Shown here: positions 11,747-30,797 of the stretch, in pieces | How positions within the stretch are numbered: the stretch's first letter is position 1 | Layout of the letters: each line of letters starts with the position of its first letter | DNA from: Arenicellaceae bacterium | GTDB lineage: Bacteria; Pseudomonadota; Gammaproteobacteria; Arenicellales; Arenicellaceae | Direction: 5' to 3' | Assembly: GCA_029246505.1 (NCBI GenBank) | Contig: JAQWNC010000021.1 | Span: forward strand, 1 to 33,248 | Length of the DNA stretch: 33,248 bases | Notes under the pieces: generated by a model | What the model was told of the DNA's origin: nothing | What the model saw: the letters and a program-made list of their open reading frames with translations, nothing else | Database searches by the model: none | Translations under genes and position numbers: made by a program

Positions 11747-11814
11747 GGGGCTTTTGGGTATGTTTGCGGGAATACACTGCGCAGCTAACAACTGTAGATG
11801 TTGTACAGTTTAGT

Positions 11815-11995
11815 ACCACCCGCAAGCGCCGTGCCACCCTGTGACCTTGAACCAGAGAGTTCAAGTGGGGATTCCACGATATCATCAGGCTTTCCGGTCA
11901 GGCCGGACCTGCACAACAGTTATCGTTTTTAATCCCCGGTTACAAATTTAGGTTCAAAGGGATTTAAGGGCAGTCACGTACGCCGCAGGCAATAC
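11815..11995 (-). ncRNA. ssrS: 6S RNA
   Basis: Regulator of sigma70 RNA polymerase. Nested pairing on the minus strand matches the 6S fold. The closing stem pairs CCTGC.GCG..CGTG...GCCC (from 11989) with GGGT..CACG..CGC..GCGGG (to 11819). Then GGGGATT (11937-11931) pairs with AATCCCC (11873-11867). Next CGATA pairs with TATCG, CAGG with CCTG and CCGG with CCGG in the apical arm. The 3' side of the central bubble carries a hairpin CTTGAAC-loop-GTTCAAG followed by GTCACAGGGTGG, closely like the E. coli RNA. It lies between zapA and 5-FCL, the standard gammaproteobacterial location. Ends are approximate to about 10 nt; TACAGT at about 12006-12001 could be its -10 box. Confidence 0.92.
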
Positions 11996-16406: not shown

Positions 16407-18101
16407 TTGTCGATGGTTCCAGGTTCTATATGTTTGCTTGTTCGTAGCCACATTCAAGTTAAGTTGCTTAGCTTGGTATTGCTGGCCATTTGTGTCCCTG
16501 TATCCGCTCAGGATTCTAATGCTTTGCCCGAATCTGAGCAGGAAGTTGTTAATCCCCAACCGTTAATTATAGAAGAAAACGAACCCGTTCCCGGTAGCGA
16601 TCAGATTTCAAATATTGGTATTGGTTTGTCGGCGGAGGTCGATCTGGAGGCAAGTCGTGGTCTGCAACGAAAGCGCAATCAGCTTGAGCATCAAATTAGT
16701 CAATTAGAGAACGAATTTGGCCCCTATTTCCAGGAATTGACTGAGCCTATGCTGGAACTGTCTGAAGTTTATCGTGATCTAGGCGATCAAGAATCCAGTC
16801 TGGTACTACTTGATCGCAGTTTGCATATGGTGAGAATAAATAGCGGTCTTGACTCTATCGAGCAGATGCCAGTATTACGCTTGTACGCAGATGCCCTTGC
16901 TTTCGGTGGGGAAGACGAAAAGGCAGGGGCTAAACAATTCCAATATTTCCAGATTGCACAACGCACAATGAATCCTAGCAGCGATGAGTTTATAGAAGTT
17001 ATGCTCGAGATGCGAGAACACCATGCCGCTCGCTTTATCGCTTCAAAAGATGGTGTCTCCGTAAGAGATTTGGTTGGTGGGTATTCCTTATCGTTGAATC
17101 TTGCCGATGCACTTGAAGACAAGTATTTGGTTGAAGTGATCGTTGAGGAGGATGTTGTGGTTCGAACCATGACGGTAAATCCAGAGTATCGGGATAACTT
17201 GCTATGGTTACTGTCCTTGGATTATTTGTTGTTTAAATTCGGATTCCACGAGCGAGACTCAATGTTTCAAACTTATAGTCCTGCATTAGTCTCTAGAATT
17301 GGCGCGCAACGATCGGGAGCGTATGCCAGTGAGGCTGTATTTTTTAGGGACCCTGAATCTAACTACCGCCGCGGCATACAAAGGGCAGTCGCCTTGGTAG
17401 AAATGACCGCACAAATTGAGGGCTGGGGTTCTATCGAACATGTTTTAGCGCAGGTGATTCTGGGTGATTGGTATATGTTGTTTGGGCGCCGTGAGCGCGC
17501 AGGTGCTAGTTACGCTGAGGCTCTTGAGCTTGCAACTACACCCGCAGTTCGGGAGCCTTTGGAGCGTATATTTGCATCGGCATCGGAGTTGCCGATTACT
17601 AAGCTTTCTGCTGAAGCGTTTTATGTAAAAGCATTTGAGTATTTAAATGAGCAAACCGAACAGACCGAGCAGATTCAAAACTCTGAGGTTCAGCGTGGAT
17701 TCATCAAGTTCTCGTACAATTTGAGTGTTAGTGGCCGCGTAAATGGTGCAGAAATTATTGAAACAAACCTTCGTTATCCAGAGTCTGTATTGCGGCAAGA
17801 GCTGCGTGAAATGCGTTCTACGCGTACCCGTCCGATTTTTTCTGAGGCCGGTTTTGTTGAGAGTAATGGTTTGGTGAAAACTAGATATCCTAGGGGATCT
17901 GAGTTACAGGATAATTTGGAGGACCTCGAAGACCCAGCCGAGATGGAGGACAGTCTAGGAATTGCTACGGAGAACAGCTTAAGCACTGGCGAAGCAGGTG
18001 AAGAGCAAACACAAGCGCGGTCGGCTATAGAGGCATCAAACACTGAACCGCTAAATATTCTCGATGATTCTACGCGCGAAGCATCTGAAGGTGCCTTTTG
18101 A
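16407..18101 (+). CDS. Exported TPR-like protein with TonB-like C-terminal domain
   Basis: First gene of the operon. It has a signal peptide (hydrophobic core about residues 19-32, likely cleavage after PVSA, residue 34), then a short coiled coil (about 78-105). A long helical region follows with TPR-like segments such as ELSEVYRDLGDQESSLVLLD and, later, GDWYMLFGRRERAGASYAEA. From about residue 430 FIKFSYNLSVSGRVNGAEII and the next 50 residues follow the pattern of a TonB/TolA-type C-terminal domain. The last 60 residues are acidic and disordered. The start may be TTG 16407, with AGGGG at good spacing, or ATG two codons later. Its stop overlaps the next start by 4 nt. No exact family recognised; a periplasmic coupling role is inference. 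Confidence 0.7.
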   Translation: MSMVPGSICLLVRSHIQVKLLSLVLLAICVPVSAQDSNALPESEQEVVNPQPLIIEENEPVPGSDQISNIGIGLSAEVDLEASRGLQRKRNQLEHQISQLENEFGPYFQELTEPMLELSEVYRDLGDQESSLVLLDRSLHMVRINSGLDSIEQMPVLRLYADALAFGGEDEKAGAKQFQYFQIAQRTMNPSSDEFIEVMLEMREHHAARFIASKDGVSVRDLVGGYSLSLNLADALEDKYLVEVIVEEDVVVRTMTVNPEYRDNLLWLLSLDYLLFKFGFHERDSMFQTYSPALVSRIGAQRSGAYASEAVFFRDPESNYRRGIQRAVALVEMTAQIEGWGSIEHVLAQVILGDWYMLFGRRERAGASYAEALELATTPAVREPLERIFASASELPITKLSAEAFYVKAFEYLNEQTEQTEQIQNSEVQRGFIKFSYNLSVSGRVNGAEIIETNLRYPESVLRQELREMRSTRTRPIFSEAGFVESNGLVKTRYPRGSELQDNLEDLEDPAEMEDSLGIATENSLSTGEAGEEQTQARSAIEASNTEPLNILDDSTREASEGAF

Positions 18102-18718
18102 CTCGCTTGCCAATTTTACTTTTCGGATTGCTCTGTGGGTGTGTGATGGGCGCAGGTTCTGAAGTGGCTGATGCCCAAGATATTCCAAAGTCATCATCAC
18201 AAACGCTGGAAGATGATTTTGCTACCGTTGGACAAGACTTTGATGATTTGATTGCACGTGAGCGCGAGGGTATTTTGCAAAGCGGTGGTATAGATGATGC
18301 CTTACTTGGTCCAGAAGCAGATCTTGAGTACGGAGATGAAACCGTATCGTTGGAGGACCTGGTTGATGTTGATGTGCAAATTAGAGGGATTCCTGTACCG
18401 CCAACAAGCTCAGGTTCGGGCCAACAGGATGAAGGTGAACAGGGTGAAGGTGAACAAGGTGAAGGTGAACAAGGTGAGCAGGAAGGTAGTGAAGGTCAGG
18501 GTTCCCAGGATGCCGCGGGCCAACCCGGTGGTTACCAACCTGGTGGTGCGGAAGGTGCTGAGGGTGAGGAAACGGAGCAGGAGCCAGATGATATTCCCGA
18601 TGGCCAGGATGATGATATTGTCGCGCGACAGTTGAGAGAATTAGCAGAAAATGAAACCGACCCTGAGCTTAAGGAGCGGTTTTGGGACGAATACCGCAAG
18701 TATAAAGCGGAAAACTAG
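18098..18718 (+). CDS. Small acidic exported protein with EGEQG repeats
   Basis: The 206-residue protein starts at TTG within a TTGA overlap with the preceding gene, with GAAGG upstream as RBS. The N-terminus is a signal sequence (MTRLPILLFGLLCGCVMGAG). LCGC could be an imperfect lipobox, or signal peptidase I could cut after ADA (residue 26). Then comes an acidic helical region, a low-complexity Gly/Glu/Gln stretch with three exact EGEQG copies, and a well-formed final helix (DDDIVARQLRELAENETDPE onward, ending YRKYKAEN). The tail is probably the conserved, binding part; the middle is a flexible spacer. Not a recognised named family. Confidence 0.65.
   Translation: MTRLPILLFGLLCGCVMGAGSEVADAQDIPKSSSQTLEDDFATVGQDFDDLIAREREGILQSGGIDDALLGPEADLEYGDETVSLEDLVDVDVQIRGIPVPPTSSGSGQQDEGEQGEGEQGEGEQGEQEGSEGQGSQDAAGQPGGYQPGGAEGAEGEETEQEPDDIPDGQDDDIVARQLRELAENETDPELKERFWDEYRKYKAEN
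18431..18475 (+). repeat. In-frame 15-bp tandem repeat, three copies
   Basis: Three head-to-tail units GAAGGTGAACA(G/A)GGT occur within the preceding coding sequence, each encoding EGEQG. Because the unit is a multiple of three, copy-number change by slippage would lengthen or shorten the spacer without breaking the frame. Degenerate units continue to about 18510. Confidence 0.85.
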
Positions 18719-18748
18719 GTTAATTAGATGCAGGGTTAACGGGGGCTT

Positions 18749-19939
18749 ATGATAAGGCAAGTTTTAGTTATAGGATTAGCGAGCGCGTTGAGCGGGTGTG
18801 CATCGTATACGGTTCGTACTACTGACCATACGCCGCTGCGGCCAGCGACAGTTGCACAAGAGCAGCAGGCGGTATACTTGGATGTTGGTGTGGTCGCGAT
18901 GGACCCTGGTTTAGATGTTAGCGCTGAAAATGAGGAAGTGATCTTTCCAGAGATTAGAATAGCGGAATCAAATTTTCATGCACAAAAATTGGTCGCCACC
19001 ATTCAACGCAGTGGATATTGGGGTGCAGTGCGAGTGGTGCCGAATATGGATGTACTTACTGAAGTGCAGGTAGACAGTAAAATCTTGAAGTCAGATGGGG
19101 AATCATTGGAGCTTCAGGTAAAGGTTACCGATGCGGCTGGAAAGCAATGGTTCGATCGCAAATTCGTAGAGGTAATCAGTCAGCTAGCGTACGAACGACA
19201 GCAATTACGGCGAGCCGACCCATTTGATGGCATGTATAACCAAATAGCAAATGCAATGGCGGACTATCTGCTAAAACAAGACGCAGATAATTTAAACAAC
19301 GTGCGAATAATTACGGAATTGCGCTTTGCTGGTGAATTTTCCCCTGAAGTCTTCAGTGATTATCTTTCGAGGAATCGAAGTGGAAGGTATAGCTTCAGCC
19401 GCCTGCCGGCAGAGAATGATCCGGCAGTTGAAAAGATACGCTTTATTCGTGAGCGTGATTATTTGTTCGTCGACACTTTGCAGGAGTACTACGATATCTT
19501 TAGTCGTGATATGGAAGTGCCCTATAATGAGTGGCGGAAAGCCAGCTATACCGAAGTGCAGGAATTGCGGGACCTAAAGCGACGTTCCAATATGGAAATG
19601 TTGGCTGGGGCGGCTGCGATTGTTGGAGGAATAGCGTCGGCTGCAACCAGTGGGACGGCTGGAGGGTATTTGGGTGGAGCATCTCTAGCCTCTGCTGGGG
19701 GTTATTTAATACGCCGTGCAGTTGAAACTCGAGATCAGATGTCTACGTCGATTGATGTGCTGCAAGAGCTGGGCAGTTCGTTACAATCGGAAGTGGAACA
19801 GCGTGTGATCGAACTGGACGATCGAACAGTTCGATTGACCGGCTCTGTGAACGAGCAGTACCTTAGATGGAAGGAAGTACTAAGAGAAATTTATCGAGAT
19901 GAGTATGGTGAAGTCGAAGCACCGATGGATGCAAGTTAA
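18749..19939 (+). CDS. Outer-membrane-type lipoprotein with glycine-rich segment
   Basis: The 396-residue protein has a lipoprotein signal with lipobox LSGC (cysteine 17) followed by Ala, which predicts outer-membrane sorting by Lol. The central region looks like a mixed alpha/beta domain (YLDVGVVAMDPGLDV, VQVDSKILKSDGESLELQVK, VTDAAGKQWFDRKF). Around residues 285-325 a glycine/alanine-rich stretch (GAAAIVGGIASAATSG then GGYLGGASLASAGGYL) resembles a glycine zipper and could insert in or pack against membrane. It is followed by a helical C-terminus. The gap from the previous gene is 30 nt and to the next 26 nt. No named family recognised; it is likely the outer-membrane anchor of the operon's complex. 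Confidence 0.68.
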   Translation: MIRQVLVIGLASALSGCASYTVRTTDHTPLRPATVAQEQQAVYLDVGVVAMDPGLDVSAENEEVIFPEIRIAESNFHAQKLVATIQRSGYWGAVRVVPNMDVLTEVQVDSKILKSDGESLELQVKVTDAAGKQWFDRKFVEVISQLAYERQQLRRADPFDGMYNQIANAMADYLLKQDADNLNNVRIITELRFAGEFSPEVFSDYLSRNRSGRYSFSRLPAENDPAVEKIRFIRERDYLFVDTLQEYYDIFSRDMEVPYNEWRKASYTEVQELRDLKRRSNMEMLAGAAAIVGGIASAATSGTAGGYLGGASLASAGGYLIRRAVETRDQMSTSIDVLQELGSSLQSEVEQRVIELDDRTVRLTGSVNEQYLRWKEVLREIYRDEYGEVEAPMDAS

Positions 19940-19965
19940 ACTTGCGGCTAATTTGAGAAATATCG

Positions 19966-21501
19966 ATGCCGCAAAGTAATGACATACAACGAAGTCGGGG
20001 TAGGAGTCTTCGCGAAGCGAAGATAGAAGCTATATCGGTAAGTCTTAGCAGTGCTAGCGTTAGTGATGCCAACGACGAAAAGCATTTGAACAAGTTATTA
20101 ATTGGGGGTATCTCTGCGGGTGTTTTGCTCCTTGTATTATTAAGCCTGTGGAAGCCACAACCAGTTAAGGTAGAGGCAGCTGTAGCCGAAGAATTATCAG
20201 AACCATCTGCTGAGGAAAGTACCGACGTTTTTCAGAGCGCTATAGTATCTAAAAGTTTTGAGGTGGCTGAGCAAGCAAGGCTTAGGCGATCTGCGCAAGA
20301 TAAGCTCGCTCAATTATTGCTGATTCAGGTAGAGTTGGCAGCAGTGAACGTTGATAAGTGGGCGGTGACACGACTTAACGAGTTAGTGCAAAAAGCGGAA
20401 TCAGGCGATCGAGCCTACCGTGATAGAAACTATGTGATGGCAGATACTGAGTATGGCGATTCGCTAGCAATTGCGGAATCTCTAAAACAACAGAGTCCAC
20501 AGATTCTCGAGGAGGCATTGGAGTCAGGTCGATCTGCGTTAACTAGAATGGATGGAGAGGGGTCGAAACAGGCTTATGCACGCGCTTTATTGGTAGATCC
20601 AGAGAATTCTGAAGCGTTAGCTGGACTGCGCCGGGCTGAATTGCAGGATGAGCTGTCGCAATGGATGATTAACGCACAAAAGTTACAAGCCGCTGGTGAT
20701 TTAGATCAAGCGCTCGCCGCTAGTGAGGACCTTGTACTGATAGATCCATTGAGTGAGCCGGTCCAAAAATTTAAACGGCAGCTGGAGCAAGCGATTTTGG
20801 AGCGTGACTTTACAGCGGCAATGTCTAGCGGTTACCGATATTTGGATAGTGAAGAACTAGCGGCGGCGCGCAGTGCTTTTTCGCGGGCAGATAAGCTGCG
20901 CCCAAATTTAACCGAGGTGGCTGTAGCGTTGCAGAGCGTGAGTAGTGCGGAAATTTCTCAACGAGTGGGCTTGCTTTCCGGTCGTGCGCGCGAAGCCGAA
21001 GCCGAAGAGGACTGGCAGCAGGCAGTAGAAGCTTATAGTCAGGTTTTGCAGCTAGAGTCTGGAAGTATTGATGGATTGATTGGCCAGGCTAGAGCGCAAG
21101 TGCGGTTGTCATTAGATCGAAAACTAGTTGCCTATCGAGGTGATTTTGACAGCTTGCTTGACCCTGTGGTTCGTGAACAAGCTCGAACCACCCTCAACCA
21201 GGCGCGGGAATTGCCTTCAGCAGGTTCGCGATTGCTGGAGCAAATAGCCAGTATATCGGCAGAATTGGATAAACTGGTTGGTGAAGTAAACGTGCAACTG
21301 GTTTCAGATGGTGTGACTGACGTGAGAATTCTTCGACAATCACGACTTGGTGTGTTTCAGCAAGAGGAGTTGATTTTGTCGCCTGGGAAGTATGTTGCAG
21401 TTGGATCCAGGACCGGCTTCCGTGATGTTCGCCTGGAATTTGTTGTGCGCTCCGGAGAGCCGCTCGAACCTCTGAATATAGCCTGTACTGAGGCTATTTA
21501 G
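19966..21501 (+). CDS. Membrane-anchored TPR protein with PEGA-like C-terminus
   Basis: The 511-residue protein has a cytosolic basic N-terminus of about 40 residues, one transmembrane helix (43-62, KLLIGGISAGVLLLVLLSLW) and a long periplasmic helical domain. TPR-like helix pairs include GDLDQALAASEDLVLIDP, ARSAFSRADKLRPNLTEV and DWQQAVEAYSQVLQLESGSI. The last 70 residues end in a PEGA-like unit, LSPGKYVAVGSRTGFRDVRL, matching the repeats of the next gene. PEGA units are beta-sandwich surface modules and TPRs bind proteins, so a scaffold role in the periplasm is likely. It is 7 nt from the next gene, so co-expression is nearly certain. Confidence 0.72.
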   Translation: MPQSNDIQRSRGRSLREAKIEAISVSLSSASVSDANDEKHLNKLLIGGISAGVLLLVLLSLWKPQPVKVEAAVAEELSEPSAEESTDVFQSAIVSKSFEVAEQARLRRSAQDKLAQLLLIQVELAAVNVDKWAVTRLNELVQKAESGDRAYRDRNYVMADTEYGDSLAIAESLKQQSPQILEEALESGRSALTRMDGEGSKQAYARALLVDPENSEALAGLRRAELQDELSQWMINAQKLQAAGDLDQALAASEDLVLIDPLSEPVQKFKRQLEQAILERDFTAAMSSGYRYLDSEELAAARSAFSRADKLRPNLTEVAVALQSVSSAEISQRVGLLSGRAREAEAEEDWQQAVEAYSQVLQLESGSIDGLIGQARAQVRLSLDRKLVAYRGDFDSLLDPVVREQARTTLNQARELPSAGSRLLEQIASISAELDKLVGEVNVQLVSDGVTDVRILRQSRLGVFQQEELILSPGKYVAVGSRTGFRDVRLEFVVRSGEPLEPLNIACTEAI

Positions 21502-21508
21502 ACCGGGC

Positions 21509-23554
21509 ATGTCGAAATCGTTTACGCGGCCGCTAACGGCTACTCCTTTTGAGCCGACCTCAGTAGATAAACCATCCGGGAAAGTTGGTTATAGCCGCCT
21601 GCTTGTCTGGTTTGCAATTGCTTCAGTAGGAAGCATTTTGTTATTCATATTATTGGCTCGTTCTGTCTATATTGATGCAGAGCCTATCGAGGGTTTAGTA
21701 GCCCTGGATGGCGGATTTTCCTTGTCGATTGGTAAACGGTATTTGGCCATCCCGGGTGAGTATCGGGTTGCGGTAAGCAGGGAAGGCTATGTTGACGTTG
21801 ATGACACCGTATCTGTGTCATGGGAGTCGGTGCAGAATTTTCACTATCGATTGGAAAAATTACCTGGCTCGTTGAGCTTATTTGCAACCGATGATGCAGG
21901 CGGTCTGGTTTATATGAACGGTCGATTGCGTGGTCGGTTGCCGTTACAAGTTGATGAACTTGAGGCCGGGACCTATCGTTTGAGGGTTACCTCTGATGGT
22001 TATTTACCATACGAGCAGGAATTATTGGTGGAGGGTATGGGCACTCATCAAGATGTCGAATTGGCTTTGATTGCTAATGGCGCCCGTCTTTCCGTAGAAT
22101 CTAGCCCAGCGGGTGCAACTTTTTCGGTAAATGGCAAGGAACTCGGTACCACGCCATTCAAAGGGGTGATACCCCCAGGTAGCGCTGAATTTATATTGCA
22201 GCATACCGGTTATAAACCATGGAAGGATTTGGCGGTAGTTCGGGTTGGTGATGAGATTAGTTTGGGAGAAATCAATTTGTTGCCTGCCGCAGGCGTGCTT
22301 GATATTACGTCAACGCCCAGCGGAGCAGCGGTGACATTGAATGACGAGTATCGGGGCACCACACCGTTAAGCGTTGCGATGCCTGATGAGTCGGAGCATC
22401 AAATAGAAATTTACAAGGATGGGTACCAGCGATTAGTGCGTCGAATGAGCATTGCCAAGCAATCGAAAGAACGGTTGATAGTGGAGTTGGCTCGTAGCTC
22501 CGGCGATGTAGTTTTCGAGGCAAATTTGGAAGACGCTGAAGTCATTATTGACCAGCGATCATATGGAAAGGTCAATCAGACCGTTAAATTACCAACTCGT
22601 GCACACCAGGTATTGATTCGTAAAACCGGTTATCGTGATTATGTTACTTCGGTTACTCCGCGTGAAGGCGTGGAGCAACTAATTAGAGCTGAGCTGGTAT
22701 CCCTACAGTCCGCCGCTTCGTCTCTGGCATTGGTAACAAAAAATTCCATTGGTATGCAGCTTAAGCTATTGCGCCCAACTGAGACGTTTCGTATTGGTGC
22801 GCCTCGGCGCGAACAGGGTCGACAAGCAAATGAAGTAGAGCGGACGATAAAACTTAGCCGACCTTTCTATGTAGCAACGCATGAGGTAACTAATACCGAG
22901 TTTAAGCGGTACTTGCCATCACATAGTAGCGGCCGTGTTGGAGATCAAAGTTTGGATCAAATCTCGCATCCGGCAGTAAACCTGAGCTGGGATCAGGCCG
23001 CTGGTTTTTGCAATTGGTTAAGCCTGCAAGAGGGGCTTGATCAGGCATATGAAATAGCTGAAGGTAGGGTTGTTTCTTCGAATTTAGAAGCCAGTGGATA
23101 TCGGTTGCCAACAGAGGTGGAGTGGGCATATGCAGCGCGATTTTCAAATCAAGGAATGATGCGTTATACCTGGGGGGATAGCGCAGAACCCCTTATGGAT
23201 AGTGCAAATATTGCAGATGAAAGCGCTATAAAATTTATCGCACGAATTTTCCGGGGTTACAACGACCGCTTTTCATTAACCGCTCCGGTGGGGAGTTTTA
23301 CGCCGAACCAATTAGGACTTTTTGACATGTCCGGCAATGTGGCCGAGTGGGTGCATGATTTCTACGAAGTTAAGGTGATCGCGCCCGGCAAGGTTGAAAC
23401 AGACCCTAGCGGAGCAGCACGCGGGCGCTATCATGTTGTTAGGGGCTCGGGTTGGAAGCATGCTAGTGTAACCGAGCTACGGCTATCGTTTAGGGATTAT
23501 AGCGATCAACCAAGAAACGATTTGGGGTTTCGGGTGGTGAAATGGGCGAATTAA
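21509..23554 (+). CDS. Membrane-anchored five-PEGA protein with catalytically dead FGE/SUMF1-like domain
   Basis: The 681-residue protein has a transmembrane helix at about 30-50 and then five PEGA-like repeats. Characteristic pieces are LAIPGEYRVAVSREGY, LEAGTYRLRVTSDGYLPY, SSPAGATFSVNGKELGTTPF, STPSGAAVTLNDEYRGTTPL and RAHQVLIRKTGYRDY. From about residue 415 a formylglycine-generating-enzyme fold follows: FYVATHEVTNTEF, VNLSWDQAAGFCNWLS, GYRLPTEVEWAYAAR, LGLFDMSGNVAEWVHDFY, VVRGSGWKH and LGFRVVKW. Active FGE enzymes carry two cysteines shortly after the RGGSW/Y motif; here the stretch WKHASVTELRLSFRD has none, so sulfatase maturation is unlikely. A structural or binding role fits better. 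The stop overlaps the next start by 13 nt. Confidence 0.85.
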   Translation: MSKSFTRPLTATPFEPTSVDKPSGKVGYSRLLVWFAIASVGSILLFILLARSVYIDAEPIEGLVALDGGFSLSIGKRYLAIPGEYRVAVSREGYVDVDDTVSVSWESVQNFHYRLEKLPGSLSLFATDDAGGLVYMNGRLRGRLPLQVDELEAGTYRLRVTSDGYLPYEQELLVEGMGTHQDVELALIANGARLSVESSPAGATFSVNGKELGTTPFKGVIPPGSAEFILQHTGYKPWKDLAVVRVGDEISLGEINLLPAAGVLDITSTPSGAAVTLNDEYRGTTPLSVAMPDESEHQIEIYKDGYQRLVRRMSIAKQSKERLIVELARSSGDVVFEANLEDAEVIIDQRSYGKVNQTVKLPTRAHQVLIRKTGYRDYVTSVTPREGVEQLIRAELVSLQSAASSLALVTKNSIGMQLKLLRPTETFRIGAPRREQGRQANEVERTIKLSRPFYVATHEVTNTEFKRYLPSHSSGRVGDQSLDQISHPAVNLSWDQAAGFCNWLSLQEGLDQAYEIAEGRVVSSNLEASGYRLPTEVEWAYAARFSNQGMMRYTWGDSAEPLMDSANIADESAIKFIARIFRGYNDRFSLTAPVGSFTPNQLGLFDMSGNVAEWVHDFYEVKVIAPGKVETDPSGAARGRYHVVRGSGWKHASVTELRLSFRDYSDQPRNDLGFRVVKWAN

Positions 23555-23736
23555 AATGGCTACTGATTTCTGGGCTTGTATTAATGCTTATCGCTCCCGG
23601 GGCATTTTCTCAAACTGAGGAAGAAGCCGCTGAAGAAGACGAGACCGAGGATAGACTAGTTATCCCTGAAGACGAATTTGTGCCAACTGAACAAATTTCC
23701 GAAGATAATGCAGTCCCGTTCCCAGTTGATATTTAA
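23542..23736 (+). CDS. Tiny exported acidic protein
   Basis: The 64-residue product has a clear signal peptide (MGELKWLLISGLVLMLIAPG, cleavage likely after AFS, residue 23). Only about 40 mature residues follow, very rich in Glu and Asp with no cysteine. It overlaps the preceding gene by 13 nt and starts at ATG after a GGTGG-containing RBS. That overlap and the classic signal sequence argue that it is real. The length suggests a small subunit or a tether. An 88-nt gap without a gene separates it from the channel subunit gene, the largest gap inside the operon. Confidence 0.6.
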   Translation: MGELKWLLISGLVLMLIAPGAFSQTEEEAAEEDETEDRLVIPEDEFVPTEQISEDNAVPFPVDI

Positions 23737-23824
23737 CAGTATGTTAAAAAATTTAAAGACCCAATTGAACGATTATTAATAGCTATAGACTTGGCCGTAA
23801 AAAGCGTTTGGAAAAAACCTGACT

Positions 23825-24646
23825 ATGAAAATAATATCTATGAACCAGAACAGCGCCAAATCTGAATTGATGTATCAATTGTTAGCTTTGCTTATTGTGA
23901 CCATTGTGGTGCATTCAGTGTATGTGACTATTATTCGGCCCCAGGCAGCATCACTTGTAGCTGAGCAATTGGTAAGGCAAGAGGCTGGTGAAACATATGA
24001 AGCGCAGCGGTCTGTGTTTATTATTCTAAAAGATCTTGAACAGGAAGCCTGCTTTATTTTAATGCTTTGGGCGATGCTGATTATGTATCGAAAGTCTCAA
24101 CAGGTGGGAGGTGAGCGCTCGATTATGGACCGATTCCTATTGGAAATACCTGATGGGACCAGGGTGCTACCCGAGGATGCTCGACAGCTCGCCCGCCCGA
24201 TTGAGGCATTGAGCGAGGATGAGCAAGACTGGTTGCCTGCAAGAGCAGTTTCTGCTGCTTTATTGCGCTTTTCTTCCACTCGAGATATAGGTAGTGTGTC
24301 CACAGCAATACGTGAAGTGTGTGACAGTCATTCCGAGCGACTGGATTCAGAGTTATCGATGATTAGATACATTGGCTGGGCGATTCCATCGATTGGTTTT
24401 ATTGGAACGGTTCGTGGTATCGGTGATGCACTTGGTAAAGCGCATGAGGCTGTCGAAGGTAATATCTCCGGGGTGGCTGCGAGTCTCGGGGTAGCTTTTA
24501 ATTCGACTTTTGTCGCATTGTTGTTAAGTATCGTGTTGATGTTTTTTATGCATCAACTTCAATTACAGCAAGAGCGTCTGGTGCTGGATACCGAGAAGTA
24601 TTGCGATCGAAAGTTATTACGCTTTTTGAAGGTGGTTTCTGAATGA
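23825..24646 (+). CDS. MotA/TolQ/ExbB-family proton channel subunit
   Basis: Inner-membrane protein of 273 residues. Transmembrane helices lie at about 17-37, 74-88, 182-200 and 219-243. The third and fourth carry the family signature: YIGWAIPSIGFIGTVRGIGD (182-201) corresponds to the ExbB/TolQ 'A-P-LLGLLGTV-GI' motif, and GVAASLGVAFNSTFVALLLS (216-235) corresponds to the helix with polar Ser/Thr residues lining the proton path. Long cytosolic segments lie between helices 2 and 3 and after helix 4. In known systems five such subunits surround two ExbD/TolR/MotB chains; here the partners would be the two vWA proteins downstream. ATG at 23825; an in-frame ATG at 23840 is possible. It overlaps the next gene by ATGA. 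Confidence 0.87.
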   Translation: MKIISMNQNSAKSELMYQLLALLIVTIVVHSVYVTIIRPQAASLVAEQLVRQEAGETYEAQRSVFIILKDLEQEACFILMLWAMLIMYRKSQQVGGERSIMDRFLLEIPDGTRVLPEDARQLARPIEALSEDEQDWLPARAVSAALLRFSSTRDIGSVSTAIREVCDSHSERLDSELSMIRYIGWAIPSIGFIGTVRGIGDALGKAHEAVEGNISGVAASLGVAFNSTFVALLLSIVLMFFMHQLQLQQERLVLDTEKYCDRKLLRFLKVVSE

Positions 24647-25995
24647 GTGAGTCCACCGTATTTGAACTTAATGATGCTTGCTTGCGCTGGGTAGCTGGTG
24701 AACATGCAGTCGAAAGTATCGGTATCGCCCTGGTAGAGGGTGATGGGTCGGTGCTATTTGGCGACGCTGCTGTCGCCCAAAGCTACCTTCGTCCTACACA
24801 GATCTCCAGTGAATATTGGCATCGATTGGATACCCAGCCTATCAAGGCAAAGGCCGGTAAAATACAACACCATGCTGATTTGGTATATGCCCACCTGATG
24901 CAGTTAAAGAACAGCTCAAATAGTGATGCTAAAGTGGATGTTATCGTGCCGTCGAGTACTTCGGAGGCTCAACTATCGATGTTGTTAGGTGTCGCGCAGC
25001 ATGCGAAATTAGATATTGGTCGGGTGGTTGGCAGGGCAGTGCTGGAAACGGCTGCCGTAAGTGGCTCTTTTGAATCAGTAATTCATTTAGAAATGACCTT
25101 GCATCAATGTGTTGTAAGCCGAGTGTTTAAACAAGAGGGATATTGGGAAGTTAGCGAAGTAAAGTCAGTATCTGGCGCAGGTTACCTGAGCTTTTTGGAA
25201 TCGTGGTCTCGCGGAGCGGCTGAGCTATTTGTTAAAGAAACTCGATTTGATCCACTGCATGATGGCCACAGTGAACAAACACTAATCGACTTGTTAAATA
25301 AATCTTTTGCGGGAGGCGAATTGCATAATGGATTGACAATCGAGCTATCTGGTCGAAGACTTGAGGTATCGGACATGCAGATTCAGGGCTGGGGTGCAGC
25401 CCCGTTAGGCCGTATTGCCAAGGCGATCGAAGAGCTCAAGTCTGCAGTGGCTGCTGGATTGAGCGAAGATTTAAAGTCTCATCAAATCCTGTGTTCTGGC
25501 TTGATAGCTGAGATACCGGGCGTGCGGAGTGCAATTTCTGAATTCGATCGGGTGGAATTGCACCACCAGTGGCTCGATGAGTTGCTAGAACCCGCCACCG
25601 ATGGTGGTGTGCATATTACTAATATACTGGCACGTGGTACTACGCCCCTAGAACAAGAACTTGTTGATAATAGTAAGGCGAATCCTAAAGTTTCTACTGA
25701 AAGCGATTCGCCTACGCATTTGTTGATTGGCTCAATTGCTCATTCCCTAAGTGCGAAGAATGTACTAAAGGCTGAAAACGGAGAATTGATATTCGAGCCG
25801 GTTAGTCAAGGTGTTGATTTGGCTAATCAAATGTGTGCAATCACCTGTGATACAGAAGATTTCGCTGGTTATCAACTTGCTGGAGTATTGGATGGTGTAT
25901 TGCTTAATGAGGAAACAGCCGGTACGGAAGAACTGCAATCAGGCGACCAGCTAAACATTAACGGACTTACAGCGACCCTGATCCGGGTGTTTTAA
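24643..25995 (+). CDS. Degenerate Hsp70/actin-fold protein, cytosolic
   Basis: The 450-residue protein has no signal or membrane helix. The segment VIVPSSTSEAQLSMLLGVAQ (100-119) with KLDIGRVVGRAVLETAAV after it follows the Hsp70 'VPAYF..QR...AGL.V.R.INEPTAAA' pattern. QILCSGLIAEIPGVRSAI (281-298) follows the 'LVGGSTRIPGV' pattern. The phosphate-2 loop, normally DLGGGTFD, reads HLEMTLHQC (148-156), so nucleotide hydrolysis may be lost. The last 50 residues (GVLDGVLLNEETAGTEELQS then GDQLNINGLTATLI) resemble the end of an FHA domain; this is weak. ATGA overlap with the channel gene and a 1-nt gap to the next indicate stoichiometric production. A cytosolic cap on the channel is my inference. 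Confidence 0.68.
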   Translation: MSESTVFELNDACLRWVAGEHAVESIGIALVEGDGSVLFGDAAVAQSYLRPTQISSEYWHRLDTQPIKAKAGKIQHHADLVYAHLMQLKNSSNSDAKVDVIVPSSTSEAQLSMLLGVAQHAKLDIGRVVGRAVLETAAVSGSFESVIHLEMTLHQCVVSRVFKQEGYWEVSEVKSVSGAGYLSFLESWSRGAAELFVKETRFDPLHDGHSEQTLIDLLNKSFAGGELHNGLTIELSGRRLEVSDMQIQGWGAAPLGRIAKAIEELKSAVAAGLSEDLKSHQILCSGLIAEIPGVRSAISEFDRVELHHQWLDELLEPATDGGVHITNILARGTTPLEQELVDNSKANPKVSTESDSPTHLLIGSIAHSLSAKNVLKAENGELIFEPVSQGVDLANQMCAITCDTEDFAGYQLAGVLDGVLLNEETAGTEELQSGDQLNINGLTATLIRVF

Positions 25996-25996
25996 T

Positions 25997-27073
25997 ATGG
26001 CGAAGAAGGCAAAGCGGAAATTTTCAACGTTTAGCCTGTCATTTCTGGACATTATGTCCTGTGGACTTGGCGCGGTGGCGTTGTTATTTTTGATTTTGAA
26101 GCACGATATTGATAACCAACCGGCCCCAGCTGAGCCGATGCAAGCAGAGATAAATTTACTTCAAGAAGAAATTACTGAGGGTGAAAAAGATTTGGTGGTT
26201 GCACGTAATACAGTGGATAAAGCTGATGACCAACTTGCCGAGGCGCAGGGACGTGCACGGCGAATTCAGGAAAGAATTGATGAGCTGCGTGCAGCTATCG
26301 AAGCCGAGCACCCAATCGCGACTGGTGATGCGATCGAACAATTACAGGCAGAAATTGCTGCACTTGAACAACGTACTCGTGAGCTGGGAGAGGATCCTGG
26401 CGATAGCTACGTTAGGGCTATTCTTGGTGAAGGCGACCGTCAATACTTAACCGGCCTGAAAACTGGCGGGCGAAATATTCTTATCTTGGTGGATGCTTCT
26501 GGAAGTATGCTGGATAGAACGATCATAAATGTAATTCGCCGCCGCAATATGAGTGATGCTGAACAGCGCGGTTCACGCAAGTGGCAGCGTGCATTGGACA
26601 CCGTTGATTGGATTGTGTCTCGTATGCCGCGAACTAGCCAGTATCAAATATATTTGTTTAACACTGATTTTGAATCTGCTCTACCGGGGACTGAAGGCGA
26701 GTGGCTAGAAGTTAGCGACAGAAGTGAATTGGGTGATGCAGTAGCGAGTATGCGTGACCGAATTCCGGCTGGGGGTACTAACTTGAGAACTATTTTTGAG
26801 GCCGCGGCAATAATGTCACCACAGCCTGATAACATGTTTTTAGTAACAGATGGGTTGCCCACACAGGGCCAAGCTGAACCTAAAAAGGGAACGGTGACAG
26901 CAGCTCAACGAATGGGATTTTTTCGTGAAGCTATTGAGCGATTACCGCGAGGGGTTCCAGTAAACACTATTTTGCAGCCTATGGAGGGTGATCCAATTGC
27001 GGCTTCTGCTTTTTGGCGATTGGCAGTAATAACTAACGGCGCATTTATGAGTCCAGCGCCGGATTGGCCATAA
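25997..27073 (+). CDS. vWA-domain protein with ExbD/TolR-like membrane anchor (first copy)
   Basis: The 358-residue protein has a short basic cytosolic N-terminus, then one membrane helix, SFLDIMSCGLGAVALLFLIL (15-34). This matches the ExbD/TolR/MotB anchor pattern, with Asp18 in the place of the proton-carrying aspartate. A coiled coil (about 47-133) follows, then a von Willebrand A domain with a complete metal-ion-dependent adhesion site: DASGS (166-170), Thr261 in AGGTNL, and Asp285 in LVTDG. The ExbD periplasmic domain is replaced by vWA. It starts 1 nt after the Hsp70-like gene. It probably pairs with the MotA/TolQ-like subunit and binds an envelope partner through the metal site. Confidence 0.85.
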   Translation: MAKKAKRKFSTFSLSFLDIMSCGLGAVALLFLILKHDIDNQPAPAEPMQAEINLLQEEITEGEKDLVVARNTVDKADDQLAEAQGRARRIQERIDELRAAIEAEHPIATGDAIEQLQAEIAALEQRTRELGEDPGDSYVRAILGEGDRQYLTGLKTGGRNILILVDASGSMLDRTIINVIRRRNMSDAEQRGSRKWQRALDTVDWIVSRMPRTSQYQIYLFNTDFESALPGTEGEWLEVSDRSELGDAVASMRDRIPAGGTNLRTIFEAAAIMSPQPDNMFLVTDGLPTQGQAEPKKGTVTAAQRMGFFREAIERLPRGVPVNTILQPMEGDPIAASAFWRLAVITNGAFMSPAPDWP

Positions 27074-27085
27074 ATTCAGAATGCT

Positions 27086-28078
27086 ATGAAAAAAAATAGA
27101 GCTCAATCAGAAGATGCGAGTATTTCGTTTCTGGATGTTATTTGCTGCGGTTTTGGAGCAATCGTTTTGTTGATGATGATCACCCGGACTATGCCACCAC
27201 ATTCGCTAGAGCAAGCGGCGCCGGAAGAGGGGAGAGTGGCCGATTTACAAGCAGCGCTATTCGAGATTCGCGGCGAGACTACGGTATTGAATCGGGATAT
27301 GACTGTTAAACAAGAACAGTTATCAGAGTACCTGGAGAAGATTGCCCTTCTTACCCAACAATTTAATGCCATGGCTGCTGCTATGGATGACAGTGGTGGG
27401 GAAGAGGACGAAAGGTCCAGCGAACTCGAGGAATTGCTGGCGGCTCGACAAAGTATGACTGAGGAAATGGAGAGGCTACTGCAAGATAAGGAAATTCAGA
27501 ATAAAGACTTGGTGGGGGGTATCCCCGTTGATAGTGAATATATTGTGTTTATTATCGATACCTCGGGCAGTATGCAATCAGCTGCGTGGAGTAAGGTTGT
27601 CAACGAAGTGGTAGCGACACTCGACGTATATCCTAATGTTAAAGGCATACAGGTGCTGAACGATATGGGCGACTATATGTTTCGGCAGTTTCGTAATCGA
27701 TGGATTCCAGATACTCCAGAACGGCGAACAGCGATTGTTCGTAGCTTGCGAACCTGGAGGCCATTTAGTAATAGCAGTCCGGTTGAAGGAATTGATGCCG
27801 CCATCCGTTCCTTTTATGATGAGAACAAGAAAATAAGCCTGTATGTTTTTGGTGATGACTTTACTGGTGGCTCGGTTGCTCGTGTAGTAACTGCAGTGGA
27901 TCGGCTTAATCGAGAACGGCAGGACGGTGAACGCAGAGTGCGAATTCATGCGATCGGTTTCCCTGTTTATTACATGGGACAACGAGCGCAACCGGAAAGT
28001 AGCATACGATTTGCGGCGTTGATGCGTGAGTTAACTTGGCGTAACGGCGGAACATTTGTAGGTCTAAACGGTCTTTAA
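27086..28078 (+). CDS. vWA-domain protein with ExbD/TolR-like membrane anchor (second copy)
   Basis: The 330-residue paralogue of the preceding protein has the same layout. The membrane anchor ISFLDVICCGFGAIVLLMMI (13-32) has Asp17 at the equivalent position. A coiled coil spans about 48-140, followed by a vWA domain with DTSGS (158-162). The usual MIDAS threonine is replaced by a serine-rich SNSSPVEG stretch, and the acidic position falls in VFGDDFTGG. The vWA parts of the two copies are well diverged while the anchors stay close. That fits an obligate heterodimer in the channel pore, since ExbD and MotB act as dimers. Gap to the first copy is 12 nt. Confidence 0.85.
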   Translation: MKKNRAQSEDASISFLDVICCGFGAIVLLMMITRTMPPHSLEQAAPEEGRVADLQAALFEIRGETTVLNRDMTVKQEQLSEYLEKIALLTQQFNAMAAAMDDSGGEEDERSSELEELLAARQSMTEEMERLLQDKEIQNKDLVGGIPVDSEYIVFIIDTSGSMQSAAWSKVVNEVVATLDVYPNVKGIQVLNDMGDYMFRQFRNRWIPDTPERRTAIVRSLRTWRPFSNSSPVEGIDAAIRSFYDENKKISLYVFGDDFTGGSVARVVTAVDRLNRERQDGERRVRIHAIGFPVYYMGQRAQPESSIRFAALMRELTWRNGGTFVGLNGL

Positions 28079-28088
28079 GGTTCTAATA

Positions 28089-28709
28089 ATGAATAATATA
28101 GTTAATAAATACCAAATCTATATATTGCTGCTTAGCGCTTTGTTGGCGGGCTGTGGAGGCACTAGGGTAGTTGTAACGGATGAATACCCTATTCCCTCGC
28201 TAAAGAAGTATCCATATTCTGCCGGTCTTGTCATACCGCCCGAATTTTCGACCTATATATATCAAGAGGCCCGAACCGATCGAGGGATGAAGTCAGTTGA
28301 TCTTGGTGCGGCGCAGGCTAGGATCATTGGTAACGTTCTTAGGGGTATGTTCGCTACTTTGGAGCAGTACGAGTCACGACCAGAATCAATTAGTGTTGAT
28401 GTGATGTTTGAGCCCAGGCTGGAAGCCTTTCAATACGCATTGCCTGCCGAAACCAGTGTCGAAGTGCTTGAGGTATGGGCCAAATATGCTATACGAATAT
28501 CGGATCGTGGAGGGCGTGAAATAGCCGATTGGGGTGTTACAGCCTACGGTAAATCAGGCGAAGGATTTATGTCTAATATGGGTTCGATCTTTGCCGAAGC
28601 AGTTCGAGTGGCGGTTCGTGATCTTGGGGCGAATATAATACTGGGCTTACCACGTGATATTGGTTTTAAATCCTGGTTAGATGATCAAGGTGCGGAGCTA
28701 ACGCCATGA
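28089..28709 (+). CDS. Outer-membrane-type lipoprotein, unknown family
   Basis: The 206-residue lipoprotein has lipobox LAGC (cysteine 22) followed by Gly, which predicts outer-membrane sorting. The mature part has mixed strands and helices (YSAGLVIPPEFSTYI, AQARIIGNVLRGMFATLEQY, ISVDVMFEPRLEAF, EVWAKYAIRISDRGGREIAD). This layout recalls small periplasmic lipoproteins that modulate transport or assembly complexes, but I recognise no specific family. RBS is AAGG upstream of the ATG. Gap of 10 nt from the vWA gene; the stop overlaps the next start by ATGA. Confidence 0.68.
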   Translation: MNNIVNKYQIYILLLSALLAGCGGTRVVVTDEYPIPSLKKYPYSAGLVIPPEFSTYIYQEARTDRGMKSVDLGAAQARIIGNVLRGMFATLEQYESRPESISVDVMFEPRLEAFQYALPAETSVEVLEVWAKYAIRISDRGGREIADWGVTAYGKSGEGFMSNMGSIFAEAVRVAVRDLGANIILGLPRDIGFKSWLDDQGAELTP

Positions 28710-29377
28710 ACCAAATTATTAAAAACTTAATTGTGTCGGCCGGAGGAGTGGTGTTAGTTGCTTGTTCAACCGTGCGGGTCGAGGAAAATCGTATGGAGAC
28801 CGTTGTATTAGATAAGACTGATGCAATTGCGGTTCTCGGACGACGACACGGAAGCAGTTACAATACCGAATACGACTTAGTGTCTTGTGTTGCTAGCAAT
28901 ATTGGCCATGATGGTTTGCAGGTGATTAGCGAGACCGAGCTATCTGACGAACTCTATCCATGGCTTGAGCCGCGTATTGCGCCCATTAGAATCGAAGCTA
29001 TGTTGTATATGATGAATAGACCCACAGTACGCGAACGGCTAAATGCTATGAATTTGCGGTATGTAGTCTGGGTTGATGGATCTACGCAGACTACCGACCA
29101 ATCTGGTTCAATGAGTTGTGCAATAGCACCTGGATTTGCCGGGTGTTATGGCATGGGGATATGGACAAACGAATCTGGGTATGAAGTGTCGATATGGGAT
29201 ATTGAACAAAATCGAGAAATCGATCAAATTTCTGTAAGCGCTGAAGGAACATCATACTTACCCGCAATAGTTGTGCCTATCCCAATAATTGCGCGAGTGC
29301 AATCTAGCGCTTGTAATGGAATAGCTATGCAAGTTAAGAGCTACTTTAAAGGTGAGACAGGTGAAACACCGAATTAA
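28706..29377 (+). CDS. Lipoprotein with several cysteines, unknown family
   Basis: The 223-residue lipoprotein has lipobox LVAC (cysteine 20) followed by Ser, predicting the outer membrane. The mature chain has further cysteines in DLVSCVASN, MSCAIAPGFAGCYGMG and SSACNGIA, an even number that could form disulfides in the periplasm. The rest looks like a small alpha/beta domain (LRYVVWVDGSTQTT, YEVSIWDIEQNREIDQISVS). No family recognised. It is coupled by ATGA to the preceding lipoprotein gene, and its 3' end overlaps the protease gene, so the three are probably translated together. Confidence 0.66.
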   Translation: MNQIIKNLIVSAGGVVLVACSTVRVEENRMETVVLDKTDAIAVLGRRHGSSYNTEYDLVSCVASNIGHDGLQVISETELSDELYPWLEPRIAPIRIEAMLYMMNRPTVRERLNAMNLRYVVWVDGSTQTTDQSGSMSCAIAPGFAGCYGMGIWTNESGYEVSIWDIEQNREIDQISVSAEGTSYLPAIVVPIPIIARVQSSACNGIAMQVKSYFKGETGETPN

Positions 29378-30797
29378 GATTTTCTCTCGTGCGCTAATGT
29401 GCGCAATAGGTATGTTAGGAATCGCATTACTATGCGTGATGCCGGTTTATTCTGCTGAAGAAGTCGGAACCTACGCGAAATTGCATCAGCAATATATAGC
29501 AGACAACCCGCTTTACCCGGATGCTAATGTTCAAAGGTATATAAATAAAGTGGGCCAGCGTATGGCAGAGGTTAGTAAGTCCAGAGGGTTCGAATACAGA
29601 TTTTTTCTAATCGATAGTTTCGATGTCAACGCCTTCGCTGCACCAGGAGGATATATATATTTTAACCGAGGTTTATTCCTACAGCTTAAGACGGAGGCGC
29701 AGCTAGCGGCGGTATTAGGTCATGAAGTCGGCCATATCGCTGGGCGGCACCATGAGCGTGGAAAAGCGAAACGGGGCGGTGGTACGTTTTTAACGATATT
29801 GACGGCTCTTATGACTGGGAGTGGCGATGCGATGCAGGCTGCTGATTTGTTGTCGCAGGTATCTACTTATGGCCACCAGCGAGAGTTGGAAATGGAGGCG
29901 GATGAATATGGACTGGAATATCTCTCTAAGGCGGGATATGACCCCGCAGCGATGGTCGAGGTAATCGAAATATTGAGGAGTAATCGACGCTTTGTTGGTG
30001 AGATTGCAGATGCCGAAGGTAAAACTACGGGTACTTACCATGGTGTTTATGCGACCCACCCGCGTGACGATCAGCGCTTACGGCGAGGAGTAGGTAACTT
30101 ACCTGGCGAGTCGGTAATTAAGTTTGGCGATAATGGAGAGTTTCGTGCTGCAGTTGATGGCATGCTATATGGAGGTGGCACGATGCCTGTAAATGTCCCC
30201 AAACTCGCGCCTGAGACTGTTATTGATAAGGCTAATAGATTTTCGATTTTATTTCCGAAAGATTGGATTACCGAGTTAGGCCCACCGTTACGTTCAACTT
30301 CTAAGAGTAAGAACGAGTGGTTAGAACTGCGGGTAAGTGCGCGTAACGGCAGTAAGACTCCCGTCGAGTATGTTCAAGCGAATATGTCTAAGCTAATACT
30401 TTTTGGTACCAAAGATGTTCGATTGAGTGGTTTGTTGGGCCACATGGGGGCGGTTAATACGACTGAAGATAACGCCAAATCTGAACGGCTTGCTGTGTTT
30501 TTCAATGGTAATCGAGTGTACGAAATCAATTACTATAATTCTGCCTCTTCCTCGCCAAAACATGACGAGCGATTTCAGGAATTATTGGAGTCACTTAGAC
30601 CCTATCGAGATGTTAGTAGTTCGCCGAAAAAGTTGCCTCGCGTTCGTTATGTAAAAGCTAAACAAGGGATGACATTTCGAGCCTTGGACCGGGCACTAAA
30701 TATGGGTAGTTATGGAGAGCAGCAGTTACGATCTATTAATGGCTATTACCCATTTGGTGAGCCTAAACCCGGTGAGTGGATAAAAATAGTTCAGTAA
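29361..30797 (+). CDS. Exported M48-family zinc metalloprotease
   Basis: Periplasmic peptidase of about 478 residues, resembling the LoiP/BepA/Oma1-like group. A signal peptide (MKHRIKIFSRALMCAIGMLG, cleavage likely near VYSA) precedes the catalytic domain. The domain shows FDVNAFAAPGGYIYFNRGL, the zinc motif HEVGH in VLGHEVGHIAGRHHERG, and the third ligand in EMEADEYGLEYL. A C-terminal domain (about the last 170 residues, from NRFSILFPKDW) follows, with a final segment QGMTFRALDRALNMG as in other exported M48 proteins. Start taken at GTG 29361 because AAAGGTGAG sits just upstream; GTG 29352 is also in frame. It overlaps the lipoprotein gene and closes the operon. A quality-control or maturation role for the complex is inference. 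Confidence 0.87.
   Translation: MKHRIKIFSRALMCAIGMLGIALLCVMPVYSAEEVGTYAKLHQQYIADNPLYPDANVQRYINKVGQRMAEVSKSRGFEYRFFLIDSFDVNAFAAPGGYIYFNRGLFLQLKTEAQLAAVLGHEVGHIAGRHHERGKAKRGGGTFLTILTALMTGSGDAMQAADLLSQVSTYGHQRELEMEADEYGLEYLSKAGYDPAAMVEVIEILRSNRRFVGEIADAEGKTTGTYHGVYATHPRDDQRLRRGVGNLPGESVIKFGDNGEFRAAVDGMLYGGGTMPVNVPKLAPETVIDKANRFSILFPKDWITELGPPLRSTSKSKNEWLELRVSARNGSKTPVEYVQANMSKLILFGTKDVRLSGLLGHMGAVNTTEDNAKSERLAVFFNGNRVYEINYYNSASSSPKHDERFQELLESLRPYRDVSSSPKKLPRVRYVKAKQGMTFRALDRALNMGSYGEQQLRSINGYYPFGEPKPGEWIKIVQ

Follow-up and report, generated by a model that had tools for sequence, protein, structure and literature searches.

A contig from the genome assembly of an Arenicellaceae bacterium carries a run of thirteen closely packed genes, and the question raised by this locus is whether they encode one machine and, if so, of what kind. 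The sequence analysed, hereafter the window (C12), comprises 33,248 nucleotides (nt) of the forward strand of contig JAQWNC010000021.1 (assembly GCA_029246505.1; 2.64 Mb in 30 contigs), and the 13 open reading frames (ORFs) of 16407–30797 are named g1–g13 in order. We consider it probable, though by no means assured, that g1–g13 encode a trans-envelope machine of 5:2 stoichiometry driven by the proton-motive force (PMF), with a docking hub formed by a dead FGE fold, as in the type IX secretion system (T9SS), with an outer-membrane lipoprotein, and additional to Tol-Pal. Conservation of the block, co-occurrence of its genes, their apparent loss as a unit in genome G185, and invariant Asp and Thr residues alongside a near-invariant metal-ion-dependent adhesion site (MIDAS) all point this way. 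The absence of an ExbD/TolR match, a published model of this type of motor and an FGE domain as free of cysteines as that of PorK are consistent with the same reading, as are the likeness of one g3 domain to outer-membrane lipoprotein domains, the C-terminal tail of g6, and the presence of TolB_N in 20 of 20 genomes with the system.

Organization of the gene block

The genes and their principal features are as follows, with coordinates in the window.

16407–18101, plus strand: g1, exported protein whose relatives give a weak TPR and TonB_C-like signal; accessory
18098–18718, plus strand: g2, exported acidic low-complexity protein; core
18611–18703, plus strand: C-terminal motif of g2, DDxVARQxREAAxxExDPxLRxKLWxEYRKYK (10 invariant columns among 23 sequences)
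18749–19939, plus strand: g3, outer-membrane-type lipoprotein; core (Cys17 invariant in 28 sequences)
18827–19279, plus strand: N-terminal domain of g3, resembling FlgT, PelC, CsgG and TolB-N
19421–19789, plus strand: long helical hairpin of g3 with a Gly/Ala-rich hydrophobic tip (model helices 225–298 and 310–347)
19966–21501, plus strand: g4, predicted inner-membrane-anchored TPR scaffold; core (hydrophobic segment 44–62)
21509–23554, plus strand: g5, predicted inner-membrane-anchored protein with PEGA repeats and an FGE-fold domain; core
22784–23542, plus strand: FGE-like domain of g5, without catalytic cysteines (Pfam FGE, 7.6e-43)
23542–23736, plus strand: g6, small exported or membrane-anchored protein; core (by position and tail between g5 and g7)
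23719–23733, plus strand: C-terminal tail of g6, FPVDI-COOH, hallmark of the system
23825–24646, plus strand: g7, TolQ/ExbB/MotA-like channel subunit; core
24643–25995, plus strand: g8, degenerate Hsp70-fold protein with an FHA-like C-terminus; accessory
25696–25992, plus strand: FHA-like domain of g8 (Pfam matches in members; alignment)
25997–27073, plus strand: g9, transpore-helix vWA protein 1; core
26033–26098, plus strand: transpore helix of g9 with Asp18 (hydropathy)
27086–28078, plus strand: g10, transpore-helix vWA protein 2; core
27119–27184, plus strand: transpore helix of g10 with Asp17 (hydropathy)
28089–28709, plus strand: g11, lipoprotein; accessory (Cys22 invariant in 19 sequences)
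28706–29377, plus strand: g12, lipoprotein; accessory (Cys20 invariant in 21 sequences)
29352–30797, plus strand: g13, exported M48 metalloprotease, BepA-like; accessory

The ORF listing confirms the tight packing on the plus strand that an earlier reading of the window (the original prediction) had described, with a widest gap of 88 nt (23736 to 23825). The block is separated by 455 nt from the upstream ORF (end 15951) and by 104 nt from a downstream fur-like ORF (30902), boundaries in keeping with the operon proposed there. Scans for promoters (22, against a mean of 24.8 in shuffles) and terminators (13 against 13.6) did no better than shuffled sequence, so it is the spacing that suggests a single transcript.

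The predicted motor core

The channel subunit expected from the original prediction is seen in g7 as a Pfam MotA_ExbB match (1.1e-15), and its two vWA proteins are recovered as VWA_2 matches in g9 (2e-6) and, weakly, in g10 (0.036). No ExbD/TolR family match was obtained with Pfam in the 13 proteins at E ≤0.1. All 95 members of g7, including five from the weaker-matching loci L050–L054, have T195 and T228, which we equate by position with the pore threonine pair of TolQ/ExbB. The transpore-helix Asp is likewise invariant in both vWA proteins (D18 in 96/96 for g9, D17 in 97/97 for g10). The MIDAS residues D158, S160, S162, S230 and D257 occur in all 97 g10 members; those of g9 are D166, S168 and S170 (96/96), T261 (94/96) and D285 (95/96).

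This arrangement corresponds to a family predicted in PMC12204202 (Mol Biol Evol 2025), the relevant part of which describes tolQ-like genes that lack tolR/exbD and are accompanied by heterologous pairs of membrane-tethered vWA proteins, both carrying a transpore helix and a conserved Asp. The family was built there from an Idiomarina seed, modelled with AF3, found mainly in Proteobacteria and Verrucomicrobia, and left unassigned in function. In the block, too, a TolQ-like gene adjoins a heterologous vWA pair without tolR/exbD, and the conserved Asp of both transpore helices accompanies the channel Thr. We take g7, g9 and g10 to belong to this family, the match being to its description and not to the Idiomarina seed sequence. 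Section 8 of that paper names no neighbour genes for the vWA family, and a word search of its main text found no Hsp70, PEGA, FGE or formylglycine; the motor described here differs in sitting within a 13-gene block with a dead-FGE hub, lipoproteins, an Hsp70-FHA protein and a protein ending in FPxDI. Among the papers listed by full-text literature searches, none dealt with the remaining genes, and no system name or phenotype came to light. The original description of the system as unrecognised is thus only partly true, because its motor core fits a family already predicted with no function assigned, and it stands for the remainder as far as these searches reach. For the PMF-powered unit with two vWA subunits that was also proposed, the residues expected of a 5:2 motor are conserved; the link to outer-membrane lipoproteins proposed with it is putative.

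One TolQ-like gene beside two different vWA genes has a counterpart in AglQRS-Glt, in which AglR and AglS are two different TolR-like subunits, and a motor for gliding, surface motility or adhesion could be built in this way. We regard this as quite improbable: the 13 proteins contain no adhesin-like domain by Pfam (Glt proteins were not searched for), and several hosts of the block are, we assume, plankton. Gliding is, for its part, raised in PMC12204202 for the first vWA family of that paper.

A Zorya-like (ZorAB) defence system would share the MotA/ExbB-type channel, and g7 does give a weak ZorA match (5.9e-4). The PADLOC and NCBIfam scans covered ten of the 13 proteins each, and no other Zorya match was found at E ≤0.001, so that ZorA is not joined by a further Zor component; a plasmid search with g10 returned no match. 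Kinship with Zorya is accordingly very improbable. A defence island or plasmid gene was rejected more generally, on the missing plasmid match of g10 and because PADLOC, across ten of the 13 proteins, yielded only the weak ZorA hit and a hit to LmuB (1.2e-5) in the coiled coil of g9.

A TolQ-like channel, lipoproteins and a TPR protein are also features of Tol-Pal. The block differs in having no TolR/ExbD, TolB or Pal domain (Pfam), the partners that accompany TolQ. TolB_N lies on another contig of the source genome and elsewhere in each of the 20 genomes with the system, which rules out a replacement of Tol-Pal; the block appears to be additional to it.

Conservation and co-occurrence

Co-occurrence of the genes in other genomes had been named as the means of checking the original prediction, and they do co-occur far beyond the source genome, in the loci named below and in another class. 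With g7 as query against 274 genomes of the class, 20 genomes from 13 families, the source included, gave matches at E ≤2.1e-51, with 41–58% identity in the other 19. The family limit was placed at this value; the next match lies at 2.3e-23 and is followed by ordinary TolQ-like matches. Of these 274, 18 genomes have g10, all inside the 20 g7 genomes, and 19 have g3, of which 18 are inside (hypergeometric p 2.8e-26 to 6.5e-24 for co-occurrence of g7, g10 and g3, with relatedness ignored). The order g2-g3-g4-g5-g6-g7-(g8)-g9-g10 recurs in the fetched neighbourhoods.

Scanning genome contigs with 16 aligned g10 proteins gave at least 590 confirmed stretches among 593 listed. The best 80 of these are referred to as named loci, and all counts on named loci refer to them. 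Their titles are those of gammaproteobacteria (for example Halieaceae, Microbulbifer, Porticoccaceae and Bowmanella), apart from one 'Proteobacteria bacterium'. Two loci (L125 and L135) are contigs of metagenome-assembled genomes titled Klebsiella pneumoniae that carry the block among otherwise marine relatives, and the label may be wrong. The 50 named loci longer than 20 kb (long loci) reach 6.2–7.3 kb past g13 and only 0.1–1.3 kb before g2. Within them g7 and g9–g12 are present in all 50, g8 in 49, and g2, g3, g4, g5 and g13 in 48; g6 was found by blastp in only 14, although its tail is nearly universal. A relative of g1 occurs in 19 of 20 named genomes, and all 19 have one match no more than about 1.5 kb ahead of g2 or of the start of the locus, a placement made by coordinates in which contig numbers are not tied to accessions. 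Several of the genomes G274–G293 carry extra g1-like matches away from the block.

These data exclude an artefact of ORF calling: relatives of 12 of the 13 genes appear in unchanged order in long named loci, the g1 relative lies just upstream in the 19 genomes while the 20th (L103) has a blastp match, and g6 is recovered across loci by its tail.

More distant members define a core (g2–g7, g9 and g10) and an accessory set (g1, g8 and g11–g13), a split made because g11–g13 were not found in L034, L036, L038, L044, L045, L047–L049, L179, L182 and L188, and g8 was not found in L036, L038, L047–L049, L179–L182 and L188. The contigs of L180 and L181 stop just after g10 and leave the region of g11–g13 uncovered. 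L179–L182 and L188 belong to another class, and all five fetched loci keep the core order and the g6 tail. Across 398 genomes of the phylum g10 is found in 16, of which 13 come from one family outside the class, the source of L179–L182 and L188.

G185 has g3 and g4 in pieces, no g10 and no close g7. The broken g3 and g4 (L185:7370-10174) lie in a single-contig genome of 2.16 Mb with no motor gene in the fetched 20 kb, and this state looks like loss of the block as a unit. In G087 and G098 the block lies on short contigs that end inside it. In one family g7 has moved, to behind g10 in L044 and to another contig in G213 (L186:10658-19143, L187:13299-14342); in G213 a gcvH-like gene is found some 5 kb away from the displaced g7 (L043).

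The downstream neighbours of the block in the window, fur and gcvH, are found beside it in 0 of 50 long loci; the side of the upstream neighbours ubiH and pepP is barely covered by the loci. Farther upstream, a 6S RNA match (RF00013, 91.5 bits) occupies 11813–11994 on the minus strand, flanked by minus-strand ORFs resembling zapA and a 5-formyltetrahydrofolate cyclo-ligase gene, and the window as a whole has the look of gammaproteobacterial DNA.

The proposed hub and the other envelope proteins

In g5, a hydrophobic segment near the N-terminus precedes PEGA repeats and a C-terminal FGE domain (Pfam, hydropathy), and the five PEGA stretches found bear out the PEGA scaffold of the original prediction. 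That the FGE domain is dead, as also proposed there, is seen from its cysteines: the catalytic pair is presumably placed within the last 60 residues of g5, and because none of the 75 members has a Cys in this stretch, the pair of the sulfatase-modifying enzymes is missing. The protein also matches GldK (9.9e-31) but, at 107.4 bits, stays below the cut-off of 350 for the GldK/PorK equivalog.

In the T9SS the FGE-like fold of PorK lacks active cysteines and acts as a docking hub whose partners include a C-terminal segment of PorN, and this hub adjoins the PMF-driven PorLM motor and an outer-membrane ring, according to the portion of PMC12421860 that treats PorKLMN/GldKLMN. The FGE domain of g5 resembles that of PorK and may serve as a docking hub in the same manner. 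PorK itself is a lipoprotein of the ring, whereas here the domain belongs to a protein with PEGA repeats and a membrane segment near its N-terminus, and the position of PorM would be taken by vWA heads. A PMF-type motor together with an outer-membrane-type lipoprotein, as in PorKLMN, and the GldK similarity below cut-off could even indicate a T9SS-like machine for secretion or surface assembly, in which the motor drives the FGE hub to move cargo through or along the outer membrane. We find this unlikely, since Pfam detects neither a translocon nor a beta-barrel domain among the 13 proteins and no conserved cargo lies downstream. A SprA/Sov search of the source genome (G000) gave no match, and its control search also matched nowhere.

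The Cys of the lipobox region is invariant in the alignments of g3, g11 and g12, in agreement with the three lipoproteins of the original prediction. The AF2 model of g3 (mean pLDDT 82) comprises an N-terminal domain followed by a very long helical hairpin with a low-confidence Gly/Ala-rich tip (pLDDT <50 at 292–294 and 296–315). The closest VIA match of the N-terminal domain is FlgT (Z 11.1 with 3.7 Å root-mean-square deviation (rmsd) over 127 residues), ahead of PelC (10.3), CsgG (9.2), TolB (9.2), PqiC (8.7) and TraT (7.0), several of the matches being listed as rings. Foldseek returned no match for g3 at ≤0.001, and this likeness of fold is for that reason treated as a lead; a profile search of the PDB also returned none. 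The hairpin is barely covered by the VIA matches. One possible use of its helices would be an alpha-helical barrel, as described for the outer-membrane anchor of TraT in the pertinent section of PMC11733297.

The remaining assignments are of varied strength. For the TPR scaffolds of the original prediction, the window proteins g1 and g4 fall below the Pfam cut-off, and three of four scanned g4 relatives lie above it. The TonB-like domain assigned to g1 has no match in the window protein and a weak TonB_C match, below cut-off, in two of four relatives (E 0.0072 and 0.0031). The protease call is upheld by a Pfam M48 match in g13 (1.2e-30), which reaches 110.7 bits against NCBIfam BepA (cut-off 570). 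Profile searches of the PDB with g11 and g12 gave nothing convincing.

The C-terminal tail of g6

The product of g6 begins with a hydrophobic stretch, continues as a variable linker and closes with the fixed ending [FY]P-x-D-I. In the 84 loci in which g5 and g7 both lie in the fetched stretch on the same strand (others were left out), a frame ending in [FY]P[VITAL]DI occurs between them in 82; L045 is without the tail, and in L179 the tail overlaps an over-long g7 start. Among 25,346 stop-ended frames of at least 40 codons in the scanned loci this ending occurs 91 times in 90 loci, and 90 of the 91 occurrences are g6. All but three end within 158 nt upstream of g7 (88 of 91), and the remainder include L044, with the tail between g5 and g8 (g7 having moved), and L179, as above. 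An opposite-strand copy of the tail stands at the very end of a contig in L100:2 and is perhaps an assembly fold-back. The tail is a hallmark that marks the system. In seven loci it ends 22–23 residues past the most hydrophobic stretch, so that its target there would lie near the inner membrane. A candidate role for the tail is that of a plug-in ligand, received either by a vWA metal site or by the pocket of the dead FGE domain. A full-text literature search for FPVDI returned only papers seemingly unrelated by title.

The Hsp70 fold of g8

The degenerate Hsp70-like protein of the original prediction is g8. The window protein has no Pfam match and no PDB sequence match (phmmer), whereas the family profile matches DnaK in the PDB (1.3e-5) and, weakly (about 0.01), further chains that we take to be FHA proteins. 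Among 23 members one matches Pfam HSP70 (5.6e-4) and two match FHA (best 1.8e-12). The AF2 model (pLDDT 83) has the fold of the Hsp70 nucleotide-binding domain (PDB code: 4kbo; Z 27.0 with 2.8 Å rmsd over 308 residues; Foldseek 6.7e-15). The Hsp70 fold thus stands, and the FHA-like region that follows it is an element the earlier description had not named; the VIA matches cover residues 1–321 only, so the C-terminal domain was barely probed by fold. The Hsp70 phosphate loops, judged by the motifs that we assume to represent them, were not seen in the 23 aligned sequences, so g8 is probably not an ATPase; where an Hsp70 chaperone would have its substrate-binding domain, the FHA-like region follows the nucleotide-binding domain.

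The FHA-like domain would also suit a mechanosensory or signalling unit, in which the channel and vWA heads sense the envelope and report to the cytoplasm through g8. We think this doubtful, and a little more so than T9SS-like secretion: g8 was not found in distant members, the block contains no kinase or phosphatase, and what we take to be the usual FHA phospho-binding positions are not kept in g8 of the window.

Another motor cluster, reached through a weaker g7 match, contains such enzymes. The stretch L052:9078-18952 (Pfam) carries FHA, TolQ-like, PP2C, trypsin-FHA, single membrane-anchored vWA (26.7 bits, just under the cut-off of 27) and kinase-PEGA genes. It shares with the block a TolQ-like protein, the next-best match to g7, a membrane-anchored vWA protein, FHA and PEGA, and is unlike it in having a single vWA gene, a kinase and a phosphatase, and no FPxDI tail in the stretch. 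In L050:7313-10550 the corresponding position is occupied by an FHA gene and a vWA gene (Pfam), and these two clusters indicate that FHA and PEGA accompany such motors more widely. L054:119-2704 holds a similar motor cluster, read by eye only.

Proposed mechanism and its standing

In the trans-envelope machine that we favour, five copies of g7 would form a TolQ-like pentamer, into the lumen of which one g9 and one g10 would insert their N-terminal transpore helices. Protonation of the paired transpore Asp residues might then step or rotate the g9/g10 dimer, making the two vWA heads the moving periplasmic parts, which could grip partners through their MIDAS metal sites. The TPR protein g4 and the PEGA-FGE protein g5 would be scaffolds anchored in the inner membrane, the FGE domain offering the docking hub, and the g6 tail (FPxDI-COOH) and the C-terminal motif of g2 may be plug-in peptides for the hub or the vWA heads. 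The outer-membrane partner would be g3, possibly as a ring, with its long hairpin perhaps extending in the direction of the inner-membrane components; the lipoproteins g11 and g12 and the M48 protease g13 would be accessory. The output would most likely be force on an outer-membrane lipoprotein assembly for upkeep or remodelling of the envelope, a suggestion we hold with less confidence than that of the machine itself. The analysis itself establishes the gene set, its conservation, the invariant residues and the predicted folds of g8 and, weakly, of g3, whereas stoichiometry, use of protons, topology, partners and function are inferred. A more specific version is speculative and, in our estimate, rather unlikely: the heterodimeric vWA 'hands' would be the shaft of a distinct 5:2 rotary machine, gripping and releasing the FPxDI tail through their metal sites or a dead-FGE receptor and so moving the outer-membrane lipoprotein assembly.

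Several observations weigh against the proposed machine. The g7 protein scores only 32.2 bits against the TolQ equivalog (cut-off 221), its profile finds no PDB chain at E ≤0.001, and the g9 profile finds no vWA chain in the PDB at E ≤0.01, its matches being confined to coiled-coil regions; the assignments of g7 and g9 are therefore carried by Pfam, motifs and the published description. Membrane topology is predicted by hydropathy only, and the idea of a g3 ring comes from a Z-score of about 11 over 127 residues, set against the negative Foldseek result. The co-occurrence statistics take no account of relatedness, and near relatives are over-represented because the named loci comprise the top 80 matches. 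G213 has g7, on another contig, and g10, with no detectable g3. Finally, no conserved cargo adjoins the block. Downstream of g13 in the 73 loci that have it (relatedness again ignored), the most frequent gene cluster is shared by 29 loci and the second by 24, each on the opposite strand, with the third present in 16.

The motor is a published prediction, and it is the hub, the tail and the outer-membrane parts that are new in combination. Few PMF-driven trans-envelope machines are known, and Tol-Pal, Ton and the T9SS explain much of Gram-negative biology. The combination of motor and dead FGE domain, like that of the T9SS, is found here in a proteobacterial operon that is well conserved in many marine gammaproteobacteria and whose core extends to another class of the phylum. 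The vWA motors predicted in 2025 gain a concrete parts list, and with the FPxDI tail a hallmark by which such systems can be found and tested.

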